Assembly (NCBI GenBank): GCA_903926465.1
Contig: CAIYJE010000050.1
Location: 1 to 64,000, forward strand
Length of the DNA stretch: 64,000 bases
DNA from: an uncultured Planctomycetales bacterium
Lineage (GTDB): Bacteria; Planctomycetota; Planctomycetia; Isosphaerales; Isosphaeraceae
Direction of reading: 5' to 3'
In this document: piece after piece, positions 1,875 through 52,764 of the stretch
Layout of the letters: each line of letters begins with the position of its first letter
Position numbering within the stretch: the first letter of the stretch is position 1
Notes under the pieces: model-generated
Database searches by the model: none
What the model saw: only the letters and a program-made list of their open reading frames with translations
What the model was told of the DNA's origin: nothing
Translations under genes and position numbers: made by a program

Positions 1875-4800
1875 CTATCTCGCCATCGGTCGGATGACGT
1901 TTCGGGTCCCTGAGCTGGAGATGCCCCGGGCAACGAGGGCCCTGGGGCCACCCGGGTGACCAAGCACCGACGAACGATCAATCTTCAGGGAGGCGTTCTT
2001 GTTCGATCGGGCCTGTTCGTGGATTCCCTGGTCACCTGGGCTGCTGTTGTGGGTGAAGACGCTGGTGTCGATGACCGTCTTGCCGCCCCGGGCATAGAAC
2101 GCAGCACCTGCGCTTGAGCTGGAGTTCTGATCGAGAACCGATCGGGAGATTTGCACGCTGCCGCCGTCGTTGAAAATGGCTCCGCCTTGCCCGAAACCGG
2201 CCTTGGCCGAAGCCTGCTTGAGAGCCTTCTTGAGTCCGCGCACAGAGATCGTATGAGCCGAATCGCCAAAAAGTGTGTTGGCCAGGTTGGTGAGGAACGC
2301 AGGCGTTTTGCCCTGCGGGCCGCCGTTCGCCGTGTTCTGCAGGAAGCGGCTCCCTTCGAGGACGCTCAGGGAGGCGCCCGGGGCGTTGTAGATGGCTCCG
2401 CCCAGTCCCAAGCCGCCCGCGCCGGCCGTGGCAATCTGTACCGTCGCTGTGTGCAAGGCCGGATCCGCACCAACGGTGTAGGTGAGTGTGACGGGTACCC
2501 CTGCCTGACTGCGGTGGCCGCTTGTCTGTAACGCCCCGTAAACTGGCACGCTCACATCGCCGCCGGGGCTTCCGACCGCGCTATTGCCCATGAGTGTGAC
2601 GCCTTCGAGCTGGGTTCTGCCGCGATTGAGAATGGCTCCGCCCAGCCCCGCCTTGCCGCTGCCGGCCGCAGCCAGGGAACTGCGAGGTTGTTCAGCGCCC
2701 ACCAGATCGGCCCCGCGTGCGGTGAAACCGTTCAGGGTGATTCCCTTGAGCAGGAATTCGACTCCAGGCAAGACATGGAACGCCCGGAAACCTTGCATGG
2801 GATCGCCCGCTGTGCCACCCCCTTCACGCAAGATGATTCCCAGATCCTTTCCGTCCAGAACCAGATCCCCGCTCAGGACGAAAGCGGACGGGCCGTACTG
2901 CGTGGTCAGGGATGCCGGGGGGGTGACGAGCGTCCAATCCTTGGCCCGGCTATTCCAGATGTAATAGGGTTGGGCTTCGGTCTCCGTCGGTAGCTTGATG
3001 TCCAGGGTGGCTCCGCGCAACCGTTCGTCGAACGTGATCACGCTCAGGTAGCCCCAGTTGGACATCTCAACCCGCTCTGCCAGAGATCCCACCCCCGCCG
3101 GATCGGCCCGATTGACCACGCCAATTGCATCCACCCGCAGTGGTGCTTGAGACACGATGGTTGATGCGTCTGCTGACACAGTCAGCCCGACGCGGGTCGG
3201 TTGACCGGATGCCTCGGCGAGCTTACTGTCCAGGAACTGGGCGTTCTCCAGATCCAGTGACAGGGTGTATTTCCCTGGAAGCTCAACCGGCAACTCGTAT
3301 TCTCCCCGGTTGTTGGTGCTACCGCGCAGAACGATTCCGTTGGGTCCGGTGAGCACCACGCCCAGCCCGGAGACCGGTTGTCCCAGCGTGTCGTTATAAC
3401 CATCGACGCGAATATCCCCGGTCACAAAAACCGCGCCCCGGACCAGTGGATAGAGGGGCGATACCGCGAGGCGGGTCTGTGCGGGGCCGCTGGAAAGGTC
3501 GATGGTTTGCCGGGCGGACTGCCCATCCCCTGCCCTGAGGTATTCAGGCAGTGCGTAGACCAGCGTGACCGCCGAGAGCCCGGCCGGCGCGTCGAGCGTG
3601 AAATCTCCATGCTCATTGGTGATCGAGCGAGGCTCACCAGATTGCCATTGGCCATCCAGGTTGATGTCCATGAAAACCGGCATTCCTGAATAGCCGATGG
3701 CCGTATCCACGGCTGTCACAAGCGTGTTTTGAACGAGTGAACCGTGCAGATCGACCCGGCCTTGGATGTCGTGGACCACCTCGAACGGCCCGGCCGATTC
3801 ACCGTAGACAGGTGTCTGGGCCGGACCATCGCTGGCCATGCCATAGAGCCAGAGATTGCCTTCGGGTAGGGACAACGCATCCCACCGGATATCGACCGAC
3901 CAGGTGCCATCGGCGTTGACTGGCACGGGAATCGATTCGGCCGGGCTGTGGAGGTCGGCCAGCGTGGCGACGTACTCCTGATTGCCTTCGAGGTCGGTGG
4001 AATAGAACAGCGAGACAAGAATCTGCTTGAGTCTTGGATCATTGACATGGCCCGTCAGGTGGGTTGTCTGGACACCGGGCCGGATGCTTGAAGCGATGGA
4101 AGGCCGATCGACCACCGAGGGATCGGTGACCCAGTGAATACCCAGGACGGGGCCCCCGCTGGAGGAATCTTGGGGGCTACGCAATCCCACCTTGCTGCGC
4201 AGAACGCCCTGGAATTGCACGCCTGGGTCCAGGAACGATCCATCGGTCTTTGACGTGAGGATCAGGATGCTGCCGACACCTGTTTTTTGGTCGAAGAAAG
4301 GTTGTCGTACCTCGAAGGTAATCCCCTGCACGGGTTCAAGATCCAGGCGTAGCGAGTCGAGCCAGTCGGCCGGCAGCCCATGGCCTGGGTCCGCCACCGG
4401 CTGGAACGAAATGGTAAAGCGACCCTGGCGGACCTGAAGTCCAGGCGGCGGGGGGCCCTGTGTGCCGGAACCGACCACAGGCGTGATGCCTGCGTAGGCA
4501 TGCGCCTGGTTCCAGGTGCTTTCGAGGACCGGCGCTCTGGAACCGCCTGGGCCCGAGAGCCTGACCGGGCTGGTAAGCCTTGCGGTGAGCGACATGCCTT
4601 GTGGTAGGTACTGGCCAGGCAGCGGTACCACCCGCACTCCGATGGTTCCGAGACCGGTCGTGGCATTGAACTGGAAAGCCAGAGGCTCGAACTTCACCCC
4701 CGGAACCGGATCGACGATGAACCGCAGGCGCTTTTGCCACCGCGCGGCGGTTGACCACCGGGCCGGATTCCTGACCTTGAAACGAACCAGATAGATTCCG

Positions 4801-7800
4801 TCGGTGACGTCGGTCTCTGGTACGGGTAACGATCGACCTGAGTACTGTGTGCGGCTGGAGTCCCACGATCTCATGCCGTCAGCCAGGGCGAGCGGTCGTG
4901 ATTTCTGGCTGAGCACCGTGGTTGACACGAGCGCCGGCAAGGCGGTTGCCGTGAATGAGCTGGAGACCGCAAGCGGAGCCACAGAGACTTGCTGGTTTGT
5001 GGATGTGAGGTCGCCTTGGATCTTGTCTCCATTGAGCAGATCGAACCGGTCGGTGTTCACGTCATAGCGAATACCCCGGGTTCCCAGCAGGAAGATCTTG
5101 CCCCATGCCATGGCGAAGAACTCGTTCCTGAGCGGGTTATACACGAACAAGAAGTCCGCAGCGGCGAGCGTGGTGCCACCGATCAGCACGATATCCCGAG
5201 GAACCTGGAGTTTTGCCGTGGACCGCAAGACCAGGCCATCGGCCGCGCTCATCGAAACGCGCCCGCCCACGACGAACACACCGGAAAGGAACGAGAGATT
5301 GAGATCGGCATAGTATGCGCCTTGCGACCAGTCGAGGAAGACGATCCCCGTTCCCTCCGCCAGCAGGCCGTTCCATTGCGGCTGGGTCATTGTGCCGGTG
5401 TTGATCGCGCCGAGGTAGGCGTTGACCTGCATCTTCAGGCTGTTGGGATCGAGCGTGAACGACCCCACGAACTGGGCCAGGACGGCGGTCTGATCTCGGA
5501 CATGCACCGTAGATCCGACACCGATTCCCATACTGCCGGTGAGGGTGATCTGGGACAGGTTGCTGAGGTTACGGATGCTGCCGGAGATGTAATTGATGGC
5601 CAGGGGAGTATTGGGGATCGGAATCCCGGCGGCTGAGGCGAATGTGACCGAGATGAAGTCGACCTTACCATCGACCAAGGCGAACTCGCCACGGGCACCC
5701 ACGCCGCCATTCACGGGCAACACAACCCCACAGGCCGCGTATACGCTCCAGGATTGCGCTGTGCGAGAAATGGTGAGCTTGGCCTCTTCGAGGGTAAAGG
5801 CTCCCAGATCAACGTTTGCCAGGCCGAGTGTCAGGTTGTGGATACTCCAGTCGTTGTTTCGAATGCGCAGACCGGGATTCGAGGGGTCTCCCAGCCCCAC
5901 CGTTGCCGAGAAGATGTTGAGGATGGTGGCCGATCCGAAAATAGCCCAGGAGTCATCGGCGCCATCATAGGTGAAGCCGGTATAGCTCGTCTTGAGCCTG
6001 AGATCGCCCACCTGGAAATCGGTGTTTAGCGCTGCGGAGGCATAGGAGATGACGCCGTTTTGCAGACGCAGGCCTGGGTTGACGAAGCTGGTGCCCAGGG
6101 TGAAACCGATCAGGTTCTCCGCCACCTGAATGCTCACGCCGCCAAAGATGTCTAGCTCGGCGGTGGCCCGCTGGTAGCGGAAGCCGATTGTCCCGGCCGG
6201 CTTGAAGTTCAGGGTCTTCAGGCTGAAGGCGGCGGAAACCGCCAGCGTGAAGTTCTCCACCGCACCGTCCACCAGCTCGATGCCCGGTGCCGAGAGGTCG
6301 ACGGCCACGCTCTCGGTCTCTGGTCCGGAACCGTCAAAGTCCAGTGATCCCTGGCCGCTGACCTGGAGTCGGGAGGGGTTGTTGGGGCTGGCGGCCGCGT
6401 ATGAGAAGCCAGCTCTGGCAAAATTGAGCGACATGCCCGCATCGTACCTGCCGTTGCCGTTGGCGTCGGTGAAGGACTCACCTTTGTTCCACACCAGGTT
6501 GCCATTGGTGTCCGTGAATGACTCTCCGCCGAAGCCGAGATTCAGCGTCAAGAACGCCGAGAAGTTCGACAGCCTGTTCGCAACGATGACGATTCCCGTG
6601 GAGTCGGTCTCGAGCCTACCCACGTTGGCCCCGGCCCGCAGCCCTGCGTTTCCCTTCAGGGTCAAACGAGCCTCGCTGTCTGAGTAGTTGGCAGCCAGTG
6701 TATCGACCAGCAGGCCAATCGCCGTGTTCCCCTGCGTATCTTTCTGGATGGGAAGCTCGCCGGCCAAGCTGAAACGGATGCTATTGAACCGACCGTTCCG
6801 CCACACGATCCCGGGAGCGGGGACAGCGGCATTCAACGTGCCTCCCAGGAGGGAAAGCGTTGTGCTTCCGAAAAGCGAAAAGAGCCCGTTCTCGCGCTGG
6901 TAGGCCAGGCCCAGCGATTGCAACGACATCGAGGCTCCAGCGATGGAGAGCACACCACTGGTGATGCTGGCATCGATACCATCAACCACTCCGGCTACCA
7001 GGGAGATTGCTCCGCTGATTCCCAGCAACCGATCAACCTTGCTGTTTTCCCCCTGGGTCGTTCCGTTGGAAATGAGCGACAGGGTGGCCGCCCCCTCGAT
7101 CCGAATGGTCTGGTTCGGCCTGTCGTACAGGAACAAGGCGTTGTCCAGGCTGAGCTGGGCACCGGCCACGTCGAGCTGGCCGGCCGCTGCCGCCTCCAGG
7201 CTTCGGAATTCGCCCTGGGAGAAACGCAGGTCCATTCTGGCCAGGGCCACGGGGGTTTCCTGAACGATGGCCCGGGCCAATCCGCTGATCCGCAGTGCTT
7301 CCTGGGTGTAATCCAGGTTCAGTCGCTTGAGTTCGAGCACGGTGCCGCCGAGCTCTGTCTCACCCGAGACCAGCCCTTTCACCTCGATACCGGCCGGGCT
7401 CAGCGTGATCCCAGGTGCGGGCAACGAGACGTCCAGCCGGCTGGTTCCAAGCAACAGGGTCGAATTCCCGGTCAAGGCAATCGAGTCGCGGTCGGCCAGG
7501 TAGGCGAAGGTCAGGTTGTCGAGGCTGAAGGAACCGCCCTGGAGATCGAGCGCTCCGGCGACCCTGGCCTGAAGCGTGACCACCCGGCCACCGGCAATGA
7601 CCAGGACCACGTTCTGGAGTCCGAACGTCGCGCCGGCCTCCACTGAGCTGAGCGTCAGGAGCTGGGTGGCCCCTGTGAGCGTGAGGCGGTCGGTCTCGCG
7701 GTTATAGGCGGCTGACAGCGATCCCAGGTCGAGGTCCTGGCCACCCACTTTCAAGACCCCCGCCAGCCGGACGTTCAGGGATTCGATTCCACGATCCGAG

Positions 7801-10139
7801 AGGACCAGGCCGGTACCGGGTAGCGAGGCTGTGACTTTGTTTCCGCCAATCTCCAGGGAGGTCGAACCGGTGAGCTGGAAACTTCCTGGAATGCCCAGTT
7901 CGCGATTTCCGGCGATGTATCTTCCGGTCAGGTTGTCAAGCGTGAGCCGGGCACCGAAGATGTCAAGATTGCCCGAGAGCCTCAGATTGACTTCCTTCAG
8001 AGAGAGTCCGCTTGCCACCAGCCCCCGCGTGCCCACAAACTCGAAATTGAGCGTTTGGCCCGCAAACACGGCCCTTCCCTTGGCGCTTTCAAGCCCTTGC
8101 TCGTTGGGATCGAAAGACAACAGCTTGAATCGGTCGAATGAGAATTCGAACCCGCTTGTCTTGATGGTGATACCGGTATAGGAACCATCCAGGAATAGAT
8201 TCAGATAATTGAGGATATTGACAAAGAAGTTCTCGTTCTGGGCGAACTGGAACGTGTAGTTCGTTTGCACCAGGAAGTCATAATTATCAAAAACTCTTGG
8301 CTTTTCGAAATCGACGTTCGAGATCGAGAGGGTGCCCTTACCAGGCATGGTGCTGGTGATGGCCAGGTTCTTATCAAGCGCGCCGCCCGCAATCGCCAGG
8401 GTCACGGTACCGGCGAAGGAATTGTCCTCCAGCGAGATCGCGTAGTAACCTTCGCTATCGGTGTAACCTACGAAGCTGTTTGAACCACTGGCGTTACTGG
8501 CGATGAGCATGGCCTGGCTCACCCCTTTTTCCCAGGGGTCGGCGATGCCGTTCTGGTTAGAGTCGGCCACCAGGCGGCCGCGGACCACGGGGTACACGGC
8601 ATGCACCAGGAAGTCGGGGACCTGGGTCAACAGGCCGGCCGCATGATTGATCGCGATGGTGCCCGACCCAGATACCGGCGCGCGGTTGCCTGGTAGCACG
8701 AACCCAATCTGGTTCTTGCCCGCGGCCACGCCATAGAAGTAATAGCTGCCATCGGTATTGGTGAGCGTGGTTTCTTCGCTCAGAGTGTCGCGCTGACCGT
8801 TACCGTTGAGGTCGTCGAAGGTTTCACCCGCGTCAAATTGTCCGTTCTGATTGGTATCCTGGAACGGTTCGATGGTATCCAGGGTTCCGTTGCCGTTAGT
8901 GTCAACGTAAACCGTCAGGCCACTGCAAGGGACTGCCCCGCCTTCGCCGGTATCCAGCAGGACCTTGCCGGCGACGTCGGTTGAGGGTTCGAAGCGGAAC
9001 AGATCACTATAAACCGGCTTGTTGATACCGTCATTGATCACTAGATACGCATACTTGGGTGTAGGTGTAAGGCTTTTTTCGAGCCAGGTGATCTGGAGAG
9101 TATTGTTCTGGAGGTATGGGCTGGCCTTCACGCCCAGACTGTCAAAGGTGAAGTAAGAGTCTCCCTGAACAGGCGTTGCCGAGACGGCCGTGACCGGTAC
9201 CGAGAAGCCCGGCGGCATGGTTTTCAGGCCAAGAGCAGCGTTGATGGGATAAGACGAGCTATTCTTTGATGGGGCCACATTGGATGGGAGCGTGGGAAGT
9301 ACCACGGCCTCTCTGGGCAGAGACTCCGGCAGAATGGCCGGCATGACCCCCAGATTGACCCGGTCGATTGGTCGGAACGCCTCGAGCGTAGACAGGCTGC
9401 CGGTTGCGGAGGGGTTCCACCCTCCCTGGCTTTGGGCCGTGAAGACCTGCCATGTGGTGGTGAGAGGCTGTTCCGTGGCGGGTGTCACCAGTTCAACACG
9501 GGTGAGCGGCTTCCAGAGAAGTTTAACCGCGTCACGCCCCACGCGGACCTCGGCTCCGATGGAGGTTTGCAGGATGACCTGAGACTGAGTGGTGGAACTG
9601 ATCCGGCCAATTCCGATCGAACCCGAGGAGTCAAAGTACAGCACGTCGTTGCCGGCCGTGTCGTTTCCGCCGGCATACGGTGTCTCGGCCTTGCGGGCGC
9701 GGATCTCAAACGGGTCAAATTCTTGACGCTCCACCAGAAAACCGCTGGCGGCGTTTATCCCTTGTCCCTTGAGGGTGGTCCAATCCGATTCCTGTTGCAC
9801 GGTCCAGAGCGAGGCGAGCACGTCGCTCGCGTCTACCACCATCAGCGAGACACTCCCCTTGGACAGAGTGTCAGTCGTGAAGCGGCCGTTGTAGCTGAAC
9901 GACGTCTGGTTCGTGTAAGAATTGATCTCATGGGTCACAAACTGGTCGTTCGTGAATCGCGCCCAGGGTTGGAGCACAAAGGCAAAGGCGTTTTGCGTGG
10001 GTGTGATCGGGTAGTCAATGGTGCCGATGGTGATCCGCTTGCTGGAATCCCAGACGGCCTTGGCATACCGGCTGGCTCCCTGCGCGGATACATCAATCCC
10101 CTTGAGGTATTGCTCGGGATTCTCCAGGATCTTTTGCAA
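1875..10139 (-). CDS. C-terminal piece of the giant protein: Cna-B/SdrD-like, tandem beta repeats, beta-helix
   Basis: This 2,754-codon frame nominally starts at a TTG but was probably reached from the upstream frame. From the N-terminus, residues 395-500 and 510-590 are Cna-B/SdrD-like modules containing Ca-binding-type loops (DTNGNGTLD, DTNQNGQFD, DLNGNGQRD). About 640-1600 is a long run of roughly 90-110-residue repeats with recurring LSGxLDxxGAxLxLDNLTxxY and SLPAPGIxL phrases. About 1210-1235 holds two further DxNGN loops. About 1730-2330 has immunoglobulin-like and carboxypeptidase-regulatory-like stretches. About 2400-2740 has GGAI(L/Y/F)N and Fxx(N)xxxxG motifs of a right-handed beta-helix. 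No PEP-CTERM or LPXTG tail is present. It is likely a surface or extracellular structural/adhesive protein. Stop is TAG. Confidence 0.7.
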   Translation of the reverse strand: MQKILENPEQYLKGIDVSAQGASRYAKAVWDSSKRITIGTIDYPITPTQNAFAFVLQPWARFTNDQFVTHEINSYTNQTSFSYNGRFTTDTLSKGSVSLMVVDASDVLASLWTVQQESDWTTLKGQGINAASGFLVERQEFDPFEIRARKAETPYAGGNDTAGNDVLYFDSSGSIGIGRISSTTQSQVILQTSIGAEVRVGRDAVKLLWKPLTRVELVTPATEQPLTTTWQVFTAQSQGGWNPSATGSLSTLEAFRPIDRVNLGVMPAILPESLPREAVVLPTLPSNVAPSKNSSSYPINAALGLKTMPPGFSVPVTAVSATPVQGDSYFTFDSLGVKASPYLQNNTLQITWLEKSLTPTPKYAYLVINDGINKPVYSDLFRFEPSTDVAGKVLLDTGEGGAVPCSGLTVYVDTNGNGTLDTIEPFQDTNQNGQFDAGETFDDLNGNGQRDTLSEETTLTNTDGSYYFYGVAAGKNQIGFVLPGNRAPVSGSGTIAINHAAGLLTQVPDFLVHAVYPVVRGRLVADSNQNGIADPWEKGVSQAMLIASNASGSNSFVGYTDSEGYYAISLEDNSFAGTVTLAIAGGALDKNLAITSTMPGKGTLSISNVDFEKPRVFDNYDFLVQTNYTFQFAQNENFFVNILNYLNLFLDGSYTGITIKTSGFEFSFDRFKLLSFDPNEQGLESAKGRAVFAGQTLNFEFVGTRGLVASGLSLKEVNLRLSGNLDIFGARLTLDNLTGRYIAGNRELGIPGSFQLTGSTSLEIGGNKVTASLPGTGLVLSDRGIESLNVRLAGVLKVGGQDLDLGSLSAAYNRETDRLTLTGATQLLTLSSVEAGATFGLQNVVLVIAGGRVVTLQARVAGALDLQGGSFSLDNLTFAYLADRDSIALTGNSTLLLGTSRLDVSLPAPGITLSPAGIEVKGLVSGETELGGTVLELKRLNLDYTQEALRISGLARAIVQETPVALARMDLRFSQGEFRSLEAAAAGQLDVAGAQLSLDNALFLYDRPNQTIRIEGAATLSLISNGTTQGENSKVDRLLGISGAISLVAGVVDGIDASITSGVLSIAGASMSLQSLGLAYQRENGLFSLFGSTTLSLLGGTLNAAVPAPGIVWRNGRFNSIRFSLAGELPIQKDTQGNTAIGLLVDTLAANYSDSEARLTLKGNAGLRAGANVGRLETDSTGIVIVANRLSNFSAFLTLNLGFGGESFTDTNGNLVWNKGESFTDANGNGRYDAGMSLNFARAGFSYAAASPNNPSRLQVSGQGSLDFDGSGPETESVAVDLSAPGIELVDGAVENFTLAVSAAFSLKTLNFKPAGTIGFRYQRATAELDIFGGVSIQVAENLIGFTLGTSFVNPGLRLQNGVISYASAALNTDFQVGDLRLKTSYTGFTYDGADDSWAIFGSATILNIFSATVGLGDPSNPGLRIRNNDWSIHNLTLGLANVDLGAFTLEEAKLTISRTAQSWSVYAACGVVLPVNGGVGARGEFALVDGKVDFISVTFASAAGIPIPNTPLAINYISGSIRNLSNLSQITLTGSMGIGVGSTVHVRDQTAVLAQFVGSFTLDPNSLKMQVNAYLGAINTGTMTQPQWNGLLAEGTGIVFLDWSQGAYYADLNLSFLSGVFVVGGRVSMSAADGLVLRSTAKLQVPRDIVLIGGTTLAAADFLFVYNPLRNEFFAMAWGKIFLLGTRGIRYDVNTDRFDLLNGDKIQGDLTSTNQQVSVAPLAVSSSFTATALPALVSTTVLSQKSRPLALADGMRSWDSSRTQYSGRSLPVPETDVTDGIYLVRFKVRNPARWSTAARWQKRLRFIVDPVPGVKFEPLAFQFNATTGLGTIGVRVVPLPGQYLPQGMSLTARLTSPVRLSGPGGSRAPVLESTWNQAHAYAGITPVVGSGTQGPPPPGLQVRQGRFTISFQPVADPGHGLPADWLDSLRLDLEPVQGITFEVRQPFFDQKTGVGSILILTSKTDGSFLDPGVQFQGVLRSKVGLRSPQDSSSGGPVLGIHWVTDPSVVDRPSIASSIRPGVQTTHLTGHVNDPRLKQILVSLFYSTDLEGNQEYVATLADLHSPAESIPVPVNADGTWSVDIRWDALSLPEGNLWLYGMASDGPAQTPVYGESAGPFEVVHDIQGRVDLHGSLVQNTLVTAVDTAIGYSGMPVFMDINLDGQWQSGEPRSITNEHGDFTLDAPAGLSAVTLVYALPEYLRAGDGQSARQTIDLSSGPAQTRLAVSPLYPLVRGAVFVTGDIRVDGYNDTLGQPVSGLGVVLTGPNGIVLRGSTNNRGEYELPVELPGKYTLSLDLENAQFLDSKLAEASGQPTRVGLTVSADASTIVSQAPLRVDAIGVVNRADPAGVGSLAERVEMSNWGYLSVITFDERLRGATLDIKLPTETEAQPYYIWNSRAKDWTLVTPPASLTTQYGPSAFVLSGDLVLDGKDLGIILREGGGTAGDPMQGFRAFHVLPGVEFLLKGITLNGFTARGADLVGAEQPRSSLAAAGSGKAGLGGAILNRGRTQLEGVTLMGNSAVGSPGGDVSVPVYGALQTSGHRSQAGVPVTLTYTVGADPALHTATVQIATAGAGGLGLGGAIYNAPGASLSVLEGSRFLQNTANGGPQGKTPAFLTNLANTLFGDSAHTISVRGLKKALKQASAKAGFGQGGAIFNDGGSVQISRSVLDQNSSSSAGAAFYARGGKTVIDTSVFTHNSSPGDQGIHEQARSNKNASLKIDRSSVLGHPGGPRALVARGISSSGTRNVIRPMAR

Positions 10140-12460
10140 CAGCGTTGTGCCCGCCGCCCCTCGACCCCGGCGAACATCGAGTTTTGCTTCAACTTCACCC
10201 GGACATCCAGAATCAGCTTCTGGTTCCCCACCAGGTCCGCGAACGACTTCGTAAGATCGACCGCCTGCTTCAGATTCGGAAAGATGTCAACCACGATCAT
10301 GCCCGAGACAAAGCCATTGGCATCGGCAGGATTCTGGCTAACCGTCCAGGTGTAGGAAGCCCCATCGGGCAGAGTATTGGCCTCGCCGCTGGCGGACCCC
10401 GGAATCTCGATGGCGATATCCCCGTCTTTCAGGACCGAGGCGAATGTCGTTGTGCCAATCTTGATCGTTGCGCTGTTGTAGGGAATGGTGACCCTGAGCC
10501 GAGAAGCTGCGAGTTCGGCAGAATCCTTATCCGCGGTGACGGTGAAGGTCTGGGTAGTCTTGAATTCCGAGCTGGGGTTGAGCGTGGCATCCTTCAGTTG
10601 GAGCAGTTTCTTGCCCCCCTCGGTGCCCCAAGAAAAATCAATCGCATCCAGAAAACTATTGGAAGTTTTTGCCCGGTTGATATCAACGGTCAGGCTTCCC
10701 GCAGCCGTGAACAGCCCCAGATCGACGTCGAACCAGGTTCCAAAGATATGATCCTGGCTGGTTTTCAGATAAAGTGCGGCAACCGAGATATCCAACAGGT
10801 AGACCGGCCACCAATCGAGAATGCCGTACGGGTCGGGCTTGAACCGCGCATCCAGGTAGAGGACAAACGAGTCGTCCTTCCAGTTGTGTTTCAGGATTCC
10901 ATTGAAGCTCAACGCCTGGAAGAACTTCCCGGTGACCGTCACTTCGAAGAATTGTTTGGTCTGGTCATAGACGAATGTGCCCGTGGCCTGGCCGGCCAGC
11001 GGCTTCCAGGGCTCATTCATGGCGGTGTAGTTGGCTTCGTCCCAGTAGCAGGCGAAGAAGGTGTCAACCTGGCCATCCACCCGCTTGAACGACAACCCTC
11101 CGCCCCGCGCCAGGGTAATGGCAACCTGACCACGAAGAATGCAGGTATAAACATTGGTATTCTGAACACCGACCCAGCCTGTTTTGAACACCTCGCCAAC
11201 GATGAACGTGGCGCTGGCCCTGATGATCAGGTTGTCTGGGTCATACAGCCCTTCAATGCCCCCCTCAAGCTGGGCCAGGTAGACCCCCGTCATCACGGGG
11301 ATCCCCTTGAAATTGGAATCGACCTTGTTGGCTCCAAAATCAACGCCAAACTTCACGAGGATCGTATCCACCACCCGTCGGCTGATTCCCGTGCTTTCAT
11401 CCACCTGATCCTTGAACTTCACGGTGCCGCCCACCAGCAAGCCGCTCATACCCAGAGAAAGGGCAACTTTGTCGACCCGGAAACCATCGGTTTCATTGCT
11501 GCTGAACACGAATTCCGCTTCGGCGATACGCAAGGGGCCCAGGTACAGGCCGCTGAGCCGGATTCCCAGGTTGTCTGCCTGGAAGTCGGTGATAAACCTG
11601 TTGAACGCGTCACTCCATTTCCGTTCGATCGTCAGTGCCGGTTGGGCGCGAGTGCCCAGATTAATCCCCAGCGCGCCGCCCTGATCGCCACCTGGCAACG
11701 TCAGGATATTCTCAAGCGCCTGCCCCGTGCCATCCTTGGTGATCTCACTCTTGGGTAGTGAACTCTTCCGGGTGTTGACAGCAATGTTGCCGTAAAGCGC
11801 CAGTTTGCCAAACGCGCCGTCCGTCGCGTTTGCCTGGTAGATGATACCAAGCTCGTTGATCCGCCAGGTCGTACCTCCCAGCGTGAGGATTGGCTTCTGG
11901 TCGCTGTTGGTCGCGCCATCCTTGGTGCTGAGGTTCAGATCCAGCTTCTGGAGCCTGCCATCAACAAAGAGCAGCCCCGGCTGTTCTTCAGAGGTTCCCG
12001 CCACGAATTCCAGATAGTTCGCTGGTTCGCGGTAGCTGGGTTTGGTCGCCCCTGTTTTCTGGAATTCCTTGAAACCATCAATGGCGAAGAAGACGGAACC
12101 GAACCCGCCCACCGTGCTCCCTTGATCTTTCCAGAAGATGGTGAGCCCACGCGCCTCAAAGGTCCAGCGTTTGTCTTTGTCTTTGCTCCCTGGAACATCT
12201 GGGTTCTTCGGTATGAACTCGCCCAGATCGAACCGCCCATCTAGTTGGATCTGGCCATCCTGCAATTCGCCGTCGCGGAAAACCAGGCCGTCTCCAGCCA
12301 GCGTGATGAACAGACTCTTTGAAAACGAATCCATGGGATCCGTTGCCAAGTTGTCATAGATAAAGCCGGCTTGCCCCGTAATGCTCAGGCTCTCTTTGCC
12401 CGTGACGCTATCGAACAAAAGTTTACTGGTCAACTCCAGGCGAGCGTTCAATCCGATCAA
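9935..12460 (-). CDS. middle piece of the giant protein, beta-rich repeats
   Basis: This is an 841-codon frame if begun at a TTG at 12460. The frame is actually open back to the TAG at 12512 and is in phase with the piece upstream, so the TTG is probably not a real start. The sequence is beta-rich, with repeated phrases such as LFITLAGDGLVFRDGELQDG and LxLGGxTWRINELGI that resemble the repeats in the downstream piece. No catalytic motif is seen. Genuine coding sense ends near 10150. The last 70 or so codons (to 9935) are Arg/Ser/Pro-rich out-of-frame translation of the start of the next piece. It is best read as the middle of a disrupted gene. Confidence 0.55.
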   Translation of the reverse strand: MIGLNARLELTSKLLFDSVTGKESLSITGQAGFIYDNLATDPMDSFSKSLFITLAGDGLVFRDGELQDGQIQLDGRFDLGEFIPKNPDVPGSKDKDKRWTFEARGLTIFWKDQGSTVGGFGSVFFAIDGFKEFQKTGATKPSYREPANYLEFVAGTSEEQPGLLFVDGRLQKLDLNLSTKDGATNSDQKPILTLGGTTWRINELGIIYQANATDGAFGKLALYGNIAVNTRKSSLPKSEITKDGTGQALENILTLPGGDQGGALGINLGTRAQPALTIERKWSDAFNRFITDFQADNLGIRLSGLYLGPLRIAEAEFVFSSNETDGFRVDKVALSLGMSGLLVGGTVKFKDQVDESTGISRRVVDTILVKFGVDFGANKVDSNFKGIPVMTGVYLAQLEGGIEGLYDPDNLIIRASATFIVGEVFKTGWVGVQNTNVYTCILRGQVAITLARGGGLSFKRVDGQVDTFFACYWDEANYTAMNEPWKPLAGQATGTFVYDQTKQFFEVTVTGKFFQALSFNGILKHNWKDDSFVLYLDARFKPDPYGILDWWPVYLLDISVAALYLKTSQDHIFGTWFDVDLGLFTAAGSLTVDINRAKTSNSFLDAIDFSWGTEGGKKLLQLKDATLNPSSEFKTTQTFTVTADKDSAELAASRLRVTIPYNSATIKIGTTTFASVLKDGDIAIEIPGSASGEANTLPDGASYTWTVSQNPADANGFVSGMIVVDIFPNLKQAVDLTKSFADLVGNQKLILDVRVKLKQNSMFAGVEGRRAQRCCKRSWRIPSNTSRGLMYPRREPAGMPRPSGIPASGSPSAPLTTRSHPRKTPLPLCSNPGRDSRTTSL

Positions 12461-12511
12461 GGTCAGGGGCGCCGGTACCAGCCGTGCGATCCACCCGGGA
12501 ATCAGATCGAC

Positions 12512-13552
12512 CTAGGCTGATGTGAAGTCGGTCAGGGCGTTATCAACCACGGTGAACGCGAGCTGCGTGTAGGTCAGTTTCGACAGGATCTCTGACGTGC
12601 CGCTTCCCTGGAATGCGAGTGAACTCCGCGAACCTGAGCCACTGGGCATGGTGTACACGATTGTGCCATCAACGGTGCCCGGGTAGCCCGCAATTGTGAA
12701 CGGCCCCTTCAGGCTGGCCTCAAGGCGGGTCAGAGTGCCTCGGGTAATCTCGATCGGCGTGGCATCGCTGATGGTCGCGTCCAGAATGTCGGTGCGGATG
12801 GTCACCGCGGCGTGGCCCAGGATTGTGGTTGTGCTTTGCCAGTTCTCAAGAGTTGAGGCCAGGGTACTGTTCGAGAAGTTCCATTTTGTTCCCGAGGCCC
12901 AGAGATCCCCGGTCGCCAGAGCGCTGGTTTGCCCCGTTCCCTCGGGTGTGATGCTGGCTTTGACTTCGGTCAGTGAGAATGGTGCCCCGGGCTTGGTCCC
13001 GTTGGTGGCATCTCCGAAGCTCAGCCAACCGGAACCGGCCAAGAGGACACGCGTGTCGATTGTGCTGCCGCCGTCTGGGTTATCAAGGCTGAATGTCGTT
13101 GGCTGGATCGCCAGGTCGCCCCAGGCCAAGGGTTGACCCGTCAGGCTCTGACCCTGGCCGACCATGTCTTGAATATCAAACGTGGTCAGCGAACTGGTTC
13201 TGAAGAACTCCACCTGAGCCTGAGCCCCGGAGAATGTGGCTCGACCGCGGAACTGCAGGCTGCCGTTCAGGGAATTGATGATCGAATCGCCGTCCAGGCG
13301 AACAAGCTTGCGAAATGCCTCCCCCTGGGTCGGCTGGAAACCGACATCGACCGGCTTGCCGATGGCTTTCCAGAAGTCACCGTCGGCCACCAGGTCGCCC
13401 CGGAACAGCAGCGGAGAGATCACGAGGTCGGTCGGGTTGATTCGCGTCTCGAGCGCCTCGACACCCAGGGAACATCGACGCGACGAAGTCGGCTTTTTCG
13501 CAGGTCGGCCATTTCGGGTGCTTTTGAGAGGCCGGCCGTCGTTGAACTTCAT
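12512..13552 (-). CDS. N-terminal piece of the giant protein, with LEPR-XLL-like signature
   Basis: This 346-aa piece begins with a basic segment (about residues 1-28) followed by VEALETRINP at 31-40. That arrangement resembles the LEPR-XLL motif found near the start of many giant planctomycete extracellular proteins. The rest is beta-rich and hydrophilic, with no enzyme motif. It ends at a TAG (12512-12514) after FTSA, and the same frame remains open on the other side of the stop. It is therefore more likely the front of a longer protein than a complete one. No clear Shine-Dalgarno sequence precedes the ATG. As annotated it would yield a short secreted-type fragment; its function is unknown. 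Confidence 0.6.
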   Translation of the reverse strand: MKFNDGRPLKSTRNGRPAKKPTSSRRCSLGVEALETRINPTDLVISPLLFRGDLVADGDFWKAIGKPVDVGFQPTQGEAFRKLVRLDGDSIINSLNGSLQFRGRATFSGAQAQVEFFRTSSLTTFDIQDMVGQGQSLTGQPLAWGDLAIQPTTFSLDNPDGGSTIDTRVLLAGSGWLSFGDATNGTKPGAPFSLTEVKASITPEGTGQTSALATGDLWASGTKWNFSNSTLASTLENWQSTTTILGHAAVTIRTDILDATISDATPIEITRGTLTRLEASLKGPFTIAGYPGTVDGTIVYTMPSGSGSRSSLAFQGSGTSEILSKLTYTQLAFTVVDNALTDFTSA

Positions 13553-15410: not shown

Positions 15411-16754
15411 TCAGCGGTTTTTCTGAGGAACCGTATTCTTGACCACAACGCCCCCTTGGATGACCACGCTCACCGTCTCCAGGGCGGCGACATTGGCAAG
15501 TGGGTCGCCCGCAACGGCGATCAGGTCGGCCAGCAGGCCGGGGCTAATCCGCCCGCGATCCCCGGCCTTGCCGATCAGGTCGGCGGCATCGGAGGTGGCT
15601 GAACGAATGGCCTGGGCGGGGGTCAGGCCGTACTTGACCATATAGGCAAACTGTTTGGCGTTGTCACCGTGGGGATAAACGCCGGCATCGGTGCCAAAGG
15701 CAATCTTGACCCCGGCCTGGGCGGCCTTGGCAAAATTATCGCGCTGGAGCTGGCCCAGGGCCCGCTCCTTGTCGATCGATTCCTGGGGCAGGTTGAATTC
15801 AATGGCCTTGCCCAGCAGGTAATCATCGTTGTAGATGTCGGCCACCAGCCAGGTACCGTGCTGTTTCATGAGTTCGATCCCCTCGTCGTCGATCAGGCTC
15901 CCGTGTTCAATCGAGTCGGCACCGGCTCTGACGGCATTCTTGATCCCCTGCGCTCCGTGGGCGTGCGCGGCCAGCTTGCGGCCCGCGGCGTGGGCCTCTT
16001 CGGCGGCGGCCCTGAGTTCGTCCACGGTGTACTGGGGGGCACCGGGGGCATCCCCTCTGGAGAGCACGCCCCCCGAGGCGTTGATCTTGATAACATCGAC
16101 CCCGTGTTTGAGCTGGGCGCGAACCCGTTTACGGACCTCGTCGGGGCCGTCGGCAATCTTGAAGTCGGCTTCGTCGGGGAAGCTCTGCATCCGAACCTGG
16201 GGGGCGAACCGGTTAAGGTCTCCGTGTCCGCCGGTCATGGAAACGCCCGGTCCACTGGCGATGATTCGGGGGCCTGGAAGTTGCCCCTCGTCAATGGCGT
16301 CGCGCAGGTCGCAGGCCAGGAACGCCGGCGAGCCCACGTCGCGCACGGTCGTGAAACCGGCCTCAAGCGTGGTTCGAGCATTGAGGACGCCGTTGAAGGC
16401 GTTTCGATAGGGCGATTCCTTGAACCTGGCCAGTTCGTCGTACCGGTCTGCCCGTTTGGTGAGGTGGGTGTGGCAATCGATCAGGCCCGGCAGTACCACA
16501 AACTGGGAGAGGTCGATGAGCTCGGCCCCGTCAGGGACGCGGCCGGTGGTCGCCGGCTCCACGGAGATAATTCGGCCCGCTTCAATCTGGATCAGCACAT
16601 CTTTGCGATAGCTATCACCGGTGCCGTCAAACAGCCGACCCGCATGAATGACCGTGATTGCGGGGGGCTTGGGTGGCGTGGTCGCCAGGCCCGGTTCCGT
16701 CTTGATGGGAGTTTGGGTAAGCAGCAAGGTCAGCAATCCAGCGGCCAGAACCAT
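15411..16754 (-). CDS. amidohydrolase-family protein (imidazolonepropionase/prolidase-like), exported
   Basis: This 447-aa protein starts with a hydrophobic signal-like segment (residues 1-14). It then has the metal-dependent amidohydrolase fold: HTH at 95-97 in the LPGLIDCHTHL motif, a probable bridging lysine in IKINASGG, metal-site histidines in AAHAHG and SIEHGSL, and the catalytic aspartate in FGTDAG. The C-terminal PGLLADLIAVAGDPL is the composite beta-sandwich end typical of this group. Family members hydrolyse C-N bonds in cyclic amides or X-Pro dipeptides; the exact substrate is unknown. The start was taken at ATG 16752-16754, with GGGAGA just upstream and the signal segment immediately after, not the 90-codon-longer form that would overlap the divergent GNAT gene leader. 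Confidence 0.87.
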   Translation of the reverse strand: MVLAAGLLTLLLTQTPIKTEPGLATTPPKPPAITVIHAGRLFDGTGDSYRKDVLIQIEAGRIISVEPATTGRVPDGAELIDLSQFVVLPGLIDCHTHLTKRADRYDELARFKESPYRNAFNGVLNARTTLEAGFTTVRDVGSPAFLACDLRDAIDEGQLPGPRIIASGPGVSMTGGHGDLNRFAPQVRMQSFPDEADFKIADGPDEVRKRVRAQLKHGVDVIKINASGGVLSRGDAPGAPQYTVDELRAAAEEAHAAGRKLAAHAHGAQGIKNAVRAGADSIEHGSLIDDEGIELMKQHGTWLVADIYNDDYLLGKAIEFNLPQESIDKERALGQLQRDNFAKAAQAGVKIAFGTDAGVYPHGDNAKQFAYMVKYGLTPAQAIRSATSDAADLIGKAGDRGRISPGLLADLIAVAGDPLANVAALETVSVVIQGGVVVKNTVPQKNR

Positions 16755-16954
16755 GAGTGTCTCCCGGTGCGGAACAAGGTCCGTGGTGGTGGACCGGTGC
16801 CTGTTTTCTAGTATCATCCACAAGAGGCTGGCCGGGATCGAGCCCAGCCTTCCGGAAAGCGGCCGCTGCCGCCGACGCTCGATCAGAACGAACCGGGGTC
16901 GCGTGCAGACGCTTAGCCTTTGAACGGTGTGGACTGGGCCAAGGGGTGGGAACG

Positions 16955-17887
16955 ATGGAAATGGTGCTGCGTCCGATGACCGAAGCCGATCGCGCTGAGG
17001 TGGCCGAGCTGATCTACTGCTCAATCAATACCTGGTACGGCCAGCATGGGTGTCCGCCCATCTTCCGGGGCGGCCCGGCTGTGACTGAGGTATTTTTTGA
17101 TGTTTACAACGACCTGACCCCGGGCTGTAACGTCGTGGCCGAGAGCCTGGCCAACGGGCGTTTGATGGGTTCTTGTTTTTATCATCCCCGGCCCCGGCAC
17201 GTGAGCCTGGGGATCATGACGGTGCACCCGAACTATGCTGGGTGTGGCGTGGGCCGCCGGCTCTTGCAGCACATCATCGATTTCACGGAAACCACTCCGC
17301 ACCGCACGCTCAGGCTAACCCAGAGCGCGATCAATGTCGATTCGTTCTCGCTGTACAATAAAGCGGGATTTGTGCCTCAGTATTCTTATCAAGATATGAT
17401 CATCCAGATGCCAAGCACGGGCTTGCCGGGCGTTGCGCCCGCGCGGGCTGGCGCGGTGCGAGACGCCACCCTGGCCGACGTGGCCACCATGGCGGCGTTG
17501 GAGCTGGAGGTGAGCGGGATCACGCGTGATCTGGATTACCGCTATTGCATCCGGAACGAGCGAGGGTTCTGGCACACGGCGGTGCTGGAAGGGCCTGGTA
17601 GGACGCTTGATGGCTTCATGATCTCATCTGGCCATCCGGCCATGAATTTGCTGGGGCCCTGCCTGGCCCGTACCGAAGAGGCGGCAGCGGCCCTGATTTA
17701 CCGAGAATTCAACCGCTACCCAGGCCGATCACCGGTATGCCTGATACCCATGGATAAGTCTCAGCTTGTGCGAACCATGTATGGCTGGGGAGCCCGCAAT
17801 TGTGAAATGCATTTTTGTCAGGTGCGGGGTGAGTTTCAACCGTTTCAGGGGGTGAATATTCCCACATTTCTACCCGAAACTGGCTGA
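16955..17887 (+). CDS. GNAT-family N-acetyltransferase with a second C-terminal GNAT-like domain
   Basis: This 310-aa protein is probably cytoplasmic. The N-terminal half is a standard GNAT domain: it begins VLRPMTEADRAEVAEL, and the acetyl-CoA-binding motif A is LGIMTVHPNYAGCGVGRRLL at about 86-105. The second half (about residues 165-300) resembles the Acetyltransf_18-type C-terminal domain, with DATLADVATMAALELEVSG at its start and no clear motif A of its own. Substrate is unknown. The start was set at ATG 16955-16957 after an AAGGGGTGGG run; the longer frame from 16757 has a non-coding-like Trp/Cys/Arg-rich leader. The gene is alone on the plus strand, divergent from the amidohydrolase. 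Confidence 0.82.
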   Translation: MEMVLRPMTEADRAEVAELIYCSINTWYGQHGCPPIFRGGPAVTEVFFDVYNDLTPGCNVVAESLANGRLMGSCFYHPRPRHVSLGIMTVHPNYAGCGVGRRLLQHIIDFTETTPHRTLRLTQSAINVDSFSLYNKAGFVPQYSYQDMIIQMPSTGLPGVAPARAGAVRDATLADVATMAALELEVSGITRDLDYRYCIRNERGFWHTAVLEGPGRTLDGFMISSGHPAMNLLGPCLARTEEAAAALIYREFNRYPGRSPVCLIPMDKSQLVRTMYGWGARNCEMHFCQVRGEFQPFQGVNIPTFLPETG

Positions 17888-17934
17888 GCCTTCACGACCC
17901 AGGCCCCGCGTGAGTTATGGGAGGCATCGAACGT

Positions 17935-18486
17935 TCACGGTTTCCCAGTTGGGTTAAGTGGTTCGGGCGACTCCAGCACCGAGGTTTTGAGCTGGTACCC
18001 TGGCCGTTGCTTGGCTGGTAACACCAGCGTTTCGGGCAGTTCGGTGTACTCTCTGCGCACGGCGTCGGCTCCATTGGCCCCATCAATATAGACCCAGGTT
18101 TTACCCTGGTCGCTGGAGAGTCCGATCAGGAACGATTTGAGGGTGATCACCGCCTCGGGTGCGTCGAGCACCAGGGTAGCGGGAATCACGCCGTAAAGCT
18201 GGCCGTCGGCCCCCTGCACCAGCTTTGAAGAGGTCTCGGTCATGAACGACTTGATCTTCAAGCCCTTCTTCTTCATGTCGTCCATGTCGTGGGTAATCAA
18301 CTCGATCAGCCGTGCCCGGTCGACACGTTCGAACACAGCCGGCGGGTAGAGGTTGGTCAGGGTCTTGTAATCCTGGCGAACCACGGCCTCGACGTACCTT
18401 TTCGCGCCCGCCTGCATGGCCTCGAGCGGGCTTTGGGCCTGCCCTTGCCCCAGGCACGTCAAAGCAATCACAAGCAGTTGCAGCAT
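17935..18486 (-). CDS. small exported protein of unknown function
   Basis: This 183-aa protein has a cleavable-looking signal peptide (MLQLLVIALTCLGQGQAQS). The mature part starts with a helical segment (about 20-75: LEAMQAGAKRYVEAVVRQDYKTLTNLYPP) reminiscent of SnoaL/NTF2-like exported proteins, followed by beta-rich sequence with SSDQGKTWVYIDGANG. No catalytic residues are recognised. The start was chosen at ATG 18484-18486, where the signal peptide begins and GAGG lies upstream; a frame extending further would run into the terminator of the giant gene. It sits directly downstream of that terminator and is probably its own transcript. Confidence 0.72.
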   Translation of the reverse strand: MLQLLVIALTCLGQGQAQSPLEAMQAGAKRYVEAVVRQDYKTLTNLYPPAVFERVDRARLIELITHDMDDMKKKGLKIKSFMTETSSKLVQGADGQLYGVIPATLVLDAPEAVITLKSFLIGLSSDQGKTWVYIDGANGADAVRREYTELPETLVLPAKQRPGYQLKTSVLESPEPLNPTGKP

Positions 18487-18602
18487 GGGGGCCTCTGGTG
18501 GGCGGAAAACGGTTGGTTGCGGGCCGGAGGTTCTATCGTCGGCTTGAGGGCGGCACAGGTCAACCTGAGCCTGAAGCCGCGGAGATCTGGGTGGAAAACA
18601 AG

Positions 18603-18641
18603 AAGCGGGCCGCATCGCCGGGAAGGAGATGCGGCCCGCTT
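18603..18641 (-). terminator. intrinsic terminator of the giant peptidase-like gene
   Basis: A perfect 14-bp stem (AAGCGGGCCGCATC / GATGCGGCCCGCTT) with an 11-nt loop is followed on the minus strand by CTTGTTTTCC. It begins about 45 nt after the stop of the 3,604-aa gene. Confidence 0.78.
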
Positions 18642-18685
18642 GGGAATTTGCACGCGTTGGGTTCAGTTTCCTGAGCCCTTGTCGC

Positions 18686-21600
18686 TTAGACCTTGGGGGT
18701 ATGGACCGACTTGGTGAATCGGCTGACAACCACGGGGGTCTTGGGCACCTTGGGGTGAACCGGGTGCTTGGTGGGCTTGGTTACGGTGACTGGCTTGGTG
18801 GGTGCGGCAATCACGTTCGACACGGTGAGTCCCTGGCTGAAGGTAGGTACCAGAGTTCCGTTAGCGTTCTTGAGGGCACCGGGGGCAAAGTCCACCTGAA
18901 GTTGCTGCTTGGTGATCAGCGGGCTTGAGAGGTTGAACCGTGCGGTGTTGCTGTTGATCCAGGTCACGCTGGTGGCCTGGGCCGGGCTATCGGGGTTGAG
19001 CGCGGGCCCGGAGAGCAGCAGGTCTTCAGCCTTGACCGTGGCTCGGTCGGGTGCCGAGGCGAACTGGATGGTGACCGAGGTCGTGGAGGTGCTGAGCACA
19101 CTGATCCCTGAGCCAAACTGCATGCCCAGCGTGTTGATGGTTCCGGTGCCGTAGTTGCCGCCGGTCTGGACGAGGCTGCTAACCTGGGCGTTGGTGCCGT
19201 TGAATTCGTAAGCCCCCACGTCCACCAGGCTGGCGGCGTTGAAGCCGACGTTGGGAATGTTGACCCGGCCTCGGTAGAGGAAGTCGGTGTCCAGTGTCCC
19301 GTCCAGCTTGGTGACAGCCTGGGAGGTGCCGTCGTCAATGGCGGCCGAGTTCGCGGCGATATTGTAGTTCGCGCCCTGGAAGAAGTTCCCCAGGCCCTGA
19401 CCATCGGGTCGGGGGTCGAGTGGAGCCACAAACGCCGGGTCGCCGGTGTAGTTGCCCAGGGCATCGGTCTTGGTAGACAGCAGCAGGGCCGGATTGAATC
19501 CGCCGCCGACGTTGTAGGTGTCATCGGCCGGGCTGGTGAGGCTGGGGCCGTTGGCCGAGAACAGGTTGTTGCGAACTTGCAGCCGGTTGGGGTTGCTGAC
19601 GGTGATCGCCGCCCCGGCCCGGGTTACCGTTCGTTCGGCATTCTGCCAGAAGATGTTGTTGGCGAGATCGGCCAGCACTGGTCCAGCCGCGTCGGTGGCA
19701 ACGGCCACACCGTGGGTGTTCCAGGCAATCGAGTTATTGACGACCTGGATGTTGGTGTGGGTGCCCTTGAAGCCCGAGGTGGTGCCGTCGTCGCCCACCA
19801 AGATGCCGTTGATGTTCCCCACGATCACGTTGCTGTAAAGGCGTGGTGCGTAGGACACATTGGAGGTGGCGATGGCCACGCCCGAGCCCGAGGTGGTGAT
19901 GATGTTGCGGTCTACCAGAATGTCCGAGTTGGAGATCGAGATCCCAATCGAATTCGGCTGGATGGCCCCATAGGCGGTTCCGCCGGTGTAGGAGTTGAGG
20001 ATGTCGAATCCGCTGATCCGGGTGGGGAAGTCTGGCAGGCTGATCAGGTTTTTGGCGACAACCGCAACCTGGGAGGCCGCCGTGAGTGACGGCTTGATGA
20101 CCGTCTTCAGGGCGATACCGGGGACCAGCTTGGTGTCGGTGCTGGTGGGGTCGGCCGAGACCACCTGCACCAGAGACTTGAGGTTGACCGTTTCGGTGTA
20201 GGTCACGTACGAGCCGGTGGAGGAGCCGCCGACCACGGCCACCGTGTCTCCAATGTTGGCCGCGGTGATGGCCGCGCCAATGGTGGTGAAGGCGTTGGTG
20301 CGGTTCCCGGTCGGTTTCGAGTTGCTCTGACCGGCATCCACATACAGGGTGTGGACCAGTTTGGGGTCGAGCACGATGAACTGCAGTTTGTAATCGCCGC
20401 CCGGCTTGCCATCACCCGACGGGAGACCGTTGGGGGTCTCGCCGTCGATCAGGTTACCGGCGATATCGCTGACGCCGGTACCGCTGCCCACCAGGGTGAC
20501 CTGATACAGGTCGTTGGTGGTGATGCCGGTGAGGTTGAAGCGAACGATCGAGGCACCGGCGGGAGTCTTGAGGTACTGCTGCTTGATGCTCGCCGGATCA
20601 ATCGAGACCGTGATATCATTGGTGTTGCCGAAGATCCCGTCTCCACCCGAGCGAACCACCTTGATGGTGGAGGTGGTCAGGCTGAGCGGATCAATGTTCT
20701 CTGGGAAGACCACGGCCACGGAAACGATGCCACCGGTCTGAAGCACGGCTCTGGTGTCTTGAACCGGGTCAGAGGCGGTGACCACTGGGCCCTTGGTATC
20801 GACCACGAAGCTGTACCGGGAGTTGAGATCGGTGAGGCTGGAGACGTTACCGCTGGTGCTGATAATCCTGGCGCGGGCCACGCTGTAGCCAGAGTCATCG
20901 CTGGTACCCAGAATGCCATCCGGGCCCACGTTGTAGTTGGTGTCTGGCACGGCGGTGGTTAATGCAACGGCAAAGTTTCCGGTTGCATCCGTGGTGCCGG
21001 TACCGGCGTTCATCACATCCCACACAATGTTGCCGCTGGCGTCGTATCCCTTGGTGGAGATGTCGATTGCCACGGTGGCGCCAATCAGGGGGTTGGTGGG
21101 CGGTGGCGAGTCGAAAATTGTGCCGGTGAAGGTCGGCTTGTTGTTCTTGGTGATGGGGTCGGTCTTGTAGTTGTCCCCATCGGGGGCCATCGTGAACGTT
21201 CCGGTCACGATCGAGGGGGCCGACGTCTTCACCAGGAAGGTGACGAAGAAGTTCCCGCCGGGGATTCCGTTGCCCGAAGGTAGCGGCTGCTGCACGCCAT
21301 CGGGGCCGGATCCCACGGTGTTTTCGCCATCAAGGGCCAGTCCCTGGGCGTTGGTGAGCACGTTGCTGCCGGAACCTTCAACCGTGATCCGGTACAGGTC
21401 GTCGCTCAGGTTCAGGCCCAGATCACCCAGGTGAATGATGATGGCCGGGTCAATAGCGGGTGTTGTGGCGGTGGCCAGGGTGCCTGGGTCATAACCCACC
21501 TTGCCCGCCAGGCTGATGAACCGATCTTGAGAGTTGTTGGCGTTACCGAAGATGCCATCGCCACCCGAGGCCTGCAGCAACACGGTCAGGTTGTTGATGG

Positions 21601-29500: not shown

Positions 29501-30041
29501 CGACTGCTCCCCGGTTCTTCCCGTTAGTCTGACCTGTTTCAACCATGACTGCATGAGTGTCAGCAGTCTTTACGATTCACAGGCTCGCTTGGCCCATCCG
29601 CGGTCTCAGAAATTTTCTGCTGATCATTTTTGGCCTCGCCGTGCGACAACATGTTTCCGTCAGATGTTTCGCACGGCTTGAGCGTCTCGCTTCTGTTGAC
29701 CTCACACAGGTCCGAACAGAACTCGGGACGGCCCTCCGCTCTCAGTCCACTCCAGAATTCTCCTGGACTGTCTTCCCTAAACTACGAACCCCTGAAGGAT
29801 CGTGACCTGGTTTGCTTCGTCAATGCATGCACTCAATCATTGAGAGGGTCTCCGATATCGGTCAAGGCGGTGTTTCAAAAAATTTCCGTGGATTCGAGCA
29901 GGTAGACCTGGGGAAATGAGCCAAGTCCATTCGGCGAAAGCTGTGCTATCTAGGTTGAGGCTGCTGTTAGTGTGTCGCGCCCGGTTGGCAAGTCAAATGA
30001 CTGGGGCAAGCTTTTCCGGTTGACTGAAAGCAACACGCGGG
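29501..30041. other. intergenic region upstream of the giant peptidase-like gene
   Basis: This is about 540 bp without a convincing gene. Short frames here lack ribosome sites and coding character. It must hold the promoter of the giant gene, but no box pair near consensus stands out. A/T content is higher than in the flanks, for example GTTTCAAAAAATTTCC near 29870. Confidence 0.4.
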
Positions 30042-41016: not shown

Positions 41017-42222
41017 TCAGTGAACGGGGTCAGTGTGTTCGGGGGTTCCGGTTCGGGTGTTGTTGAGCCGGGGTGCTGCAATGGACATGGCGGCTACCAG
41101 GGCCACAAACAGAACTGCACCGGCTACCTCAATGGTCACCAGATGGTCCGTGAACAGGCTGCCGCCCAGGCCCGCGACATGCGGCGGTGGTTCGCCCCGT
41201 CCAGTTTCTTCCGAGGAACCAACGACCAGAGTGTTGGTGCTGGTCAAAACCCGCTCAAAGATCGAAACCAAGTCTTCGCCGCCTGGGCTCGACCCCAGGC
41301 TTCCGAGTGGTTTTCCGGTCATGGGATCAAGGGCCCGGCTCACAAGGTCCGACGTACGAACCAGTCGCTGGTCAAAGTCTGTCGCAGCCAGATCACGTTT
41401 GATCTGAGTCATTTCACGAGGGGCACTCAGGTTGGATCCGCCCGGGCCGGCACCTGGACCTCCGGGACCGGCAGGCGGCGTACCAGGGCCGCCTGGACCT
41501 CCAGCAATGGCTTCACCTGAAGCAGTGGGTCCTGAGCTAGGTGCACCACCAGGTCCTCGACCTGGTCCCCCAGCCATGGCTCCACCACCGGGTCCACCAG
41601 GACCGCGACGGGAACCACTGGGGGGTAGCAGGCCAGCCCCGTTTCGGGGCGCGACCAGACCGGTTGGGGCCTTGGGTACGGTCAGGTCTCGATAGGACGA
41701 GGTCTGGACCCGCCAGATGGCGAAGATCAGGCCCAGTAACAGGCCGAAGGCGGTCAGTGTGGAACGGACGGGCGACCGGGCCATGCGATCATAAGGGGCC
41801 TGGCCTTCTGCCTGGGCCAGCATGATCACGAATAAGAACGTGACGATGATGGCACCCGCGTAAACAATGATGGTGCCAGCGGCAAGGAACTGGGCCCCGA
41901 CCAGCAGGAACAGGCCGGCTGTAGCCAGTAACACCACCGCAAACCAGAGCGCATTATGAACTGGGTCACGGGCGGTCACCGCCAGAATGCCGCCTGCCAG
42001 GGCGAGGGCTGCAAACGCGAATAGGAAGAACCGGGCCAGCCAGTCCATGGGCGGGGTGAGCAGCAGCAAGAACAGGCCAAGCCCGCCGGCCGCCACAATG
42101 GCCCCCATGATGTGGATCTGGCGTGGGGACGACTGCTTGTGCCGGTGTGGCAGCAACAAGCCGGTTCCCAGGCCCAGCAGCAGCACGCTCAAGATGGGAA
42201 GAAGTTCGGTGCCGGTGTTCAT
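41017..42222 (-). CDS. nuoJ: NADH-quinone oxidoreductase subunit J with large Gly/Pro-rich insertion
   Basis: This complex I membrane subunit is 401 aa against the usual 165-200. The canonical core is at 61-135 (ARFFLFAFAALALAGGILAV, DPVHNALWFAVVLLATAGLF, QFLAAGTIIVYAGAIIVTFLF) plus helix 155-171. The final helix (LFTDHLVTIEVAGAVLFVAL, about 357-376) is displaced by a 180-residue insertion at about 171-350: collagen-like GGPGGPG runs (205-262) followed by a soluble charged stretch (268-335). Two extra hydrophobic segments precede the core (8-25 and 38-55). The frame is intact and overlaps nuoI by 4 bp, so this is a real protein and not a misjoined frame. Confidence 0.92.
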   Translation of the reverse strand: MNTGTELLPILSVLLLGLGTGLLLPHRHKQSSPRQIHIMGAIVAAGGLGLFLLLLTPPMDWLARFFLFAFAALALAGGILAVTARDPVHNALWFAVVLLATAGLFLLVGAQFLAAGTIIVYAGAIIVTFLFVIMLAQAEGQAPYDRMARSPVRSTLTAFGLLLGLIFAIWRVQTSSYRDLTVPKAPTGLVAPRNGAGLLPPSGSRRGPGGPGGGAMAGGPGRGPGGAPSSGPTASGEAIAGGPGGPGTPPAGPGGPGAGPGGSNLSAPREMTQIKRDLAATDFDQRLVRTSDLVSRALDPMTGKPLGSLGSSPGGEDLVSIFERVLTSTNTLVVGSSEETGRGEPPPHVAGLGGSLFTDHLVTIEVAGAVLFVALVAAMSIAAPRLNNTRTGTPEHTDPVH

Positions 42223-52552: not shown

Positions 52553-52690
52553 GCTGGACTCCTCGGCCGCGCCGTAGCAAGCAGTCATGCCTTGCGTGTT
52601 TGAGCGCAAGGATCATTCTTTAGATTATCAGCCGTCTGACCAAAAAACAGCAGGAAAAATTTTCAGGGTGTGGCGAATGCCTCAAAGCCA

Positions 52691-52731: not shown

Positions 52732-52764
52732 TCAAGTCATCAACTCAAGTTTGAGCTTTAGCCG

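Follow-up and report, generated by a model that had tools for sequence, protein, structure and literature searches.

The window, a stretch of 64,000 nucleotides from an uncultured Planctomycetales bacterium, carries on its minus strand, from 13552 down to 1875, a single coding region that the ORF listing and a codon scan divide into three pieces, here called A, B and C. These pieces are one ancestral gene with two interruptions in the reported sequence, an in-frame TAG and a frame change. This conclusion is based on the continuity of the codon signal, on a repeat common to the pieces and on the single frames in which homologues and paralogues are found. The product was probably a giant beta-repeat protein of the cell surface or secreted from the cell, judging from its features and from the known giant proteins of planctomycetes. 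Recent inactivation of this single gene is, in our view, the best explanation of the interruptions, with a probability of about 0.6 that is a judgement and was not computed. A single nonsense substitution and a single frame change would have disabled an ancestral gene for a giant surface or secreted protein, and the product now possible from its start codon would be a truncated protein of only 346 residues.

The first reading frame runs from an ATG at 13552 to the TAG at 12514–12512, and the same frame stays open down to 9938. The second is open from 10286 to 1878, where a further TAG closes it. When the gene is read through with the first TAG counted as X, it has 3,891 positions. A codon log-odds model trained on other genes of the window scored the first frame as coding between 13552 and ~10160, across the TAG, and beyond that point only the second frame. 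The coding signal swaps frame exactly once over the gene, and the non-coding frames score strongly negative almost everywhere. The read-through, the ORFs and the codon scan thus agree on what the initial annotation had described, a giant surface-type gene of ~3,890 codons with one TAG and one frame change. Beyond these two lesions, we detected no further stop in ~3,890 codons, and the codon bias is undiminished. The coordinates of the gene and its features are collected in Table 1.

Table 1 Features of the interrupted gene, in window coordinates
Feature	Position	Strand	Basis or remark
Piece A, 346 codons, gene start	12515..13552	-	Matches homologue L022, 27-28% identity, residues 14-329
N-terminal EALETR motif, Planc_extracel/LEPR-like by eye	13439..13471	-	Aligned to E.LEDR of homologues
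Repeat unit in piece A, residues 268-301	12650..12751	-	Repeat profile
In-frame TAG, first lesion	12512..12514	-	Coding signal unbroken on either side
Piece B, 784 codons, frame of A; earliest possible start TTG at 12460	10160..12511	-	ORF and codon scan
Repeat unit in piece B, read-through residues 526-589	11786..11977	-	Repeat profile
Stretch of piece B matching the conserved domain of piece C, E 8e-4	10925..11587	-	Sequence match, weak
Frame change, 95% interval, mode 10159 at GAGGGGCGGCGGGC	10143..10191	-	Change-point estimate from codon scores
Piece C, ~2,760 codons to gene end	1878..10157	-	ORF and codon scan
SdrD_B-like domain	8433..8567	-	Pfam PF17210, E 9e-9
~52-residue repeat array, seven strong units, piece C	5922..8024	-	Repeat profile
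Repeats and conserved domain common to homologues (alignment A1)	5016..7040	-	Alignment; AlphaFold
CarboxypepD_reg-like stretch, under Pfam cut-off	3249..3392	-	Pfam
Terminal stop TAG, coding signal stops here	1875..1877	-	Codon scan

The frame had been read as open straight across the first TAG, and the codon-usage signal bears this out, with no drop at that point: the preceding 20 codons score +8.3, and three successive bins of 20 codons, the first beginning at the TAG, score +3.7, +2.8 and +6.3. Open frames on both sides of each joint would also be expected if read-through of the TAG and a programmed frameshift together yielded the full protein. We consider such recoding extremely improbable. 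TAG is the stop of 38 of the 461 ORFs with 400 codons or more, and of the interrupted gene itself, which speaks against a genome-wide reassignment of TAG, already doubted in the initial annotation. RNA structure downstream of the two sites is not unusually stable (z 0.36 and -0.81), no slippery heptamer was seen by eye, and the intact homologues and paralogues require neither event. The AlphaFold model of the TAG-spanning part had a pLDDT of 29.5, too low for use.

The frame change had been placed near 10150 within a G/C run. Its position agrees with the change-point estimate (10191–10143, mode 10159), although the estimate does not single out one run. The stretch is G/C-rich with short runs, the longest G run being GGGG, and neither a long homopolymer nor a short tandem repeat of a hypermutable kind was found at the frame change. 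Surface-protein genes of other bacteria use phase variation by slippage, and a frame change within a G-rich stretch could in principle reflect a frame toggled in this manner. This reading is very improbable, because slippage needs a long run and the candidate is just GGGG, while 26 runs of 5–7 identical bases within the gene are all in frame. Moreover, slippage leaves the TAG unexplained, and no homologue aligns well enough at the site to reveal a conserved tract.

The kinship of the three pieces was examined with a profile of the ~52-residue repeat that drew solely on homologues and piece C and left out pieces A and B. This profile detected repeats in A (E 5e-6) and in B (E 4e-6), both E values referring to a small database, and many in C. 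Since A and B did not contribute to the profile, their detection excludes chance as the source of the resemblance. The conserved domain of piece C that has a weak counterpart in piece B is non-repeat sequence. In a homologue from another genome (G020), a frame of 2,428 codons without interruption holds both an A-like N-terminus and a C-like domain. When A-X-B was compared with this intact homologue by BLASTP, one alignment spanned the TAG (residues 14–588, E 7e-13), with a small gain in score past the TAG, from 62.0 to 65.5 bits. Piece B has no close homologue among 59 relatives or in the genome-contig collection searched. If the pieces were instead three separate genes in a row, B and C could start at TTG codons (12460 and 10139, respectively). 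This arrangement is scarcely credible: no ATG or GTG start was found near either joint, the coding signal continues directly from the stop into the next piece, and the homologue just described joins its A-type and C-type parts in one frame. The initial annotation had named homologues in the form of three separate genes as evidence that would refute its reading; those that we inspected are single genes.

The N-terminus of piece A carries a basic stretch and an SLGVEALETR motif and thereby resembles the corresponding end of homologous giant proteins from planctomycetes. Neither Pfam nor NCBIfam gave a match there (PF07595, LEPR-XLL), and homologues with an obvious LEDR-like motif give none either. 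Piece C holds two SdrD_B-like stretches by Pfam, and the PF17210 score of the whole protein passes the gathering cut-off (35.9 vs 29.7 bits); the only other Pfam result, apart from the sub-threshold stretch in Table 1, was one weak lectin match. The protein therefore resembles known SdrD_B-like domain proteins in these two stretches but differs from them in that its bulk is beta repeat, for which no sequence match was found in Pfam, NCBIfam or the PDB. The ~52-residue repeat has the consensus GLVISNGSLTSLDATVNSSFSVAGLTFTANNLTFTYSASTNTFTITGSASLS, is common to giant proteins of several Planctomycetia families, including homologues L022–L029, and matched no Pfam or NCBIfam model. AlphaFold rendered segment 5001–7007 as all-beta, with pLDDT mostly 70–90 over residues 270–640, so that the conserved domain is predicted to be all-beta, a prediction that is fairly confident for the second half of the domain. 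The best fold matches of this domain, LptD-type barrels, reached a TM of only ~0.17 with an rmsd >25 Å and were rejected, and we make no fold claim.

The conserved domain is present in 35 of 397 Planctomycetia genomes, nearly always within one long open frame. A scan of genome contigs with a narrower alignment (A2) returned three named loci, and the nearest named homologue contig belongs to an uncultured Isosphaeraceae bacterium whose genome falls in the same family group as that of the window. Judged from this contig, the host is an Isosphaeraceae-type planctomycete. A search of a plasmid collection and one pattern scan of viral contigs gave no match. Planctomycetota are noted for an abundance of huge proteins (>5,000 residues), which have been reported from four Isosphaeraceae genomes (PMC11573180). 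The protein described here is like the giant extracellular proteins of this phylum, Isosphaeraceae included, in size, repeat make-up and occurrence as several per genome, but the present copy differs in being interrupted twice. Six paralogues in the same genome, with 24,052 open codons in total, contain no stop within their matches; for those on contigs C169, C180, C85 and C154, integrity was judged from the open-frame lengths given by the search. On C169 a paralogue of this repeat family, at 51686–63166 on the minus strand, lies within a 9,150-codon open frame, and the paralogue on C180 has an open frame of 5,723 codons.

Double lesions also occur in homologues from two further genera, one with a TAG and a TAA near each other (L174, G370:C108) and the other with a frame change and a TAG (L195, G278:C1172). 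Together with the present gene, these could indicate that giant surface proteins in Planctomycetia undergo on/off turnover again and again, with broken copies retained and open to repair through recombination with the genome's several paralogues. We regard such turnover as very improbable.

The assembly is a draft of 207 contigs with an estimated contamination of 2.95%, which would be compatible with a gene that is intact in the organism, at least one of its two breaks being an error of assembly or consensus that arose from miscalled bases or strain mixture. The G/C-rich stretch with short runs at the frame change and the undisturbed frame and codon bias on either side of the breaks would fit such an origin. 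Against it, every longer run in the gene keeps the frame, and a substitution that creates a TAG is a rarer kind of error than an indel. A frame-change scan with a home-made codon model, which misses lesions that lie close to a contig end or within a short gene, covered 1.77 Mb of the genome. It gave two strong cases, the interrupted gene and a glycosyltransferase-like gene that probably contains a frameshift (L071, 16340, minus strand, contig C39), as well as two weaker ones (L035:1172 and L040:12393). The three candidates other than the present gene shift the frame in a single direction, as deletion-biased errors would, and one of the three lies at an AAAAA run; this one-way shift of isolated frame changes fits biology equally. 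A control scan of another genome of the family yielded weak candidates only.

A scan for stops with in-frame coding directly after them, from which antisense shadows and neighbouring genes starting at once were removed, left two cases, the TAG of this gene and one in contig C5 (L037). The latter contains, at 16600–20070 on the minus strand, what is left of a surface-protein gene rich in repeats; its frame changes number at least two, and three stops interrupt its frame (18079 TAG, 17848 TAA and 16819 TAG). Sister repeats within that gene are open and have ordinary amino acids at the positions equivalent to the stops. This locus is unmistakably a real multi-lesion pseudogene of the same genome, indicating that surface-protein genes do decay here.

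Lesions in the 1.77 Mb are rare and clustered in surface-protein genes, which argues against assembly error. From the three isolated frameshift candidates outside multi-lesion genes, ~0.02 lesions would be expected for the interrupted gene. The probability of two lesions in one 11.7-kb gene by chance is 0.0002–0.002 for a named gene and 0.03–0.27 per scan of this size for some 11.7-kb tile, depending on the isolated-lesion rate assumed. Chance clustering of errors as the source of both lesions is unlikely but not negligible.

As in a pseudogene, homologues keep a single open frame and disabling lesions are present in the reported sequence. We infer that both lesions exist in the organism itself, arose recently and abolish function. 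They are deemed real because of their rarity in the assembly, the unbroken paralogues, the C5 pseudogene and the double lesions in two other genera, and recent because no other stop has accumulated and the codon bias has not been lost. Of the three causes initially offered, recent decay is favoured, assembly or consensus error is a less probable but substantial alternative, and phase variation is disfavoured by the shortness of its candidate run. In combining nonsense and frameshift lesions in a long gene, the locus resembles the ordinary pseudogenes that large surface proteins leave in bacteria, but it differs in having only two lesions, suggesting an early stage or possibly an artefact.

The interrupted gene matters mostly for annotation hygiene, as a gene finder would give three proteins for one gene, and two of these would begin at a false TTG. 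Both true inactivation and assembly error find a large target in a giant gene, and in draft genomes reads are needed to separate the two. The gene with two breaks is itself ordinary; its least ordinary part is the ~52-residue repeat family, which is undescribed, occurs in several Planctomycetia families while missing from Pfam, and merits a curated family.

The statement that all other genes in the window are intact holds as far as it was tested. A second giant gene, of 3,622 codons with Big_5 Ig-like domains, lies intact at 18686–29554, and its Planc_extracel match is below threshold (E 0.017). The one other frameshift signal, at 41619–41652 in nuoJ, proved a false alarm, in which a Gly/Pro-rich linker mimics a frameshift in codon statistics. 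The NuoJ-like protein encoded at 41017–42222 has 401 residues and carries this long linker ahead of its last membrane segment.
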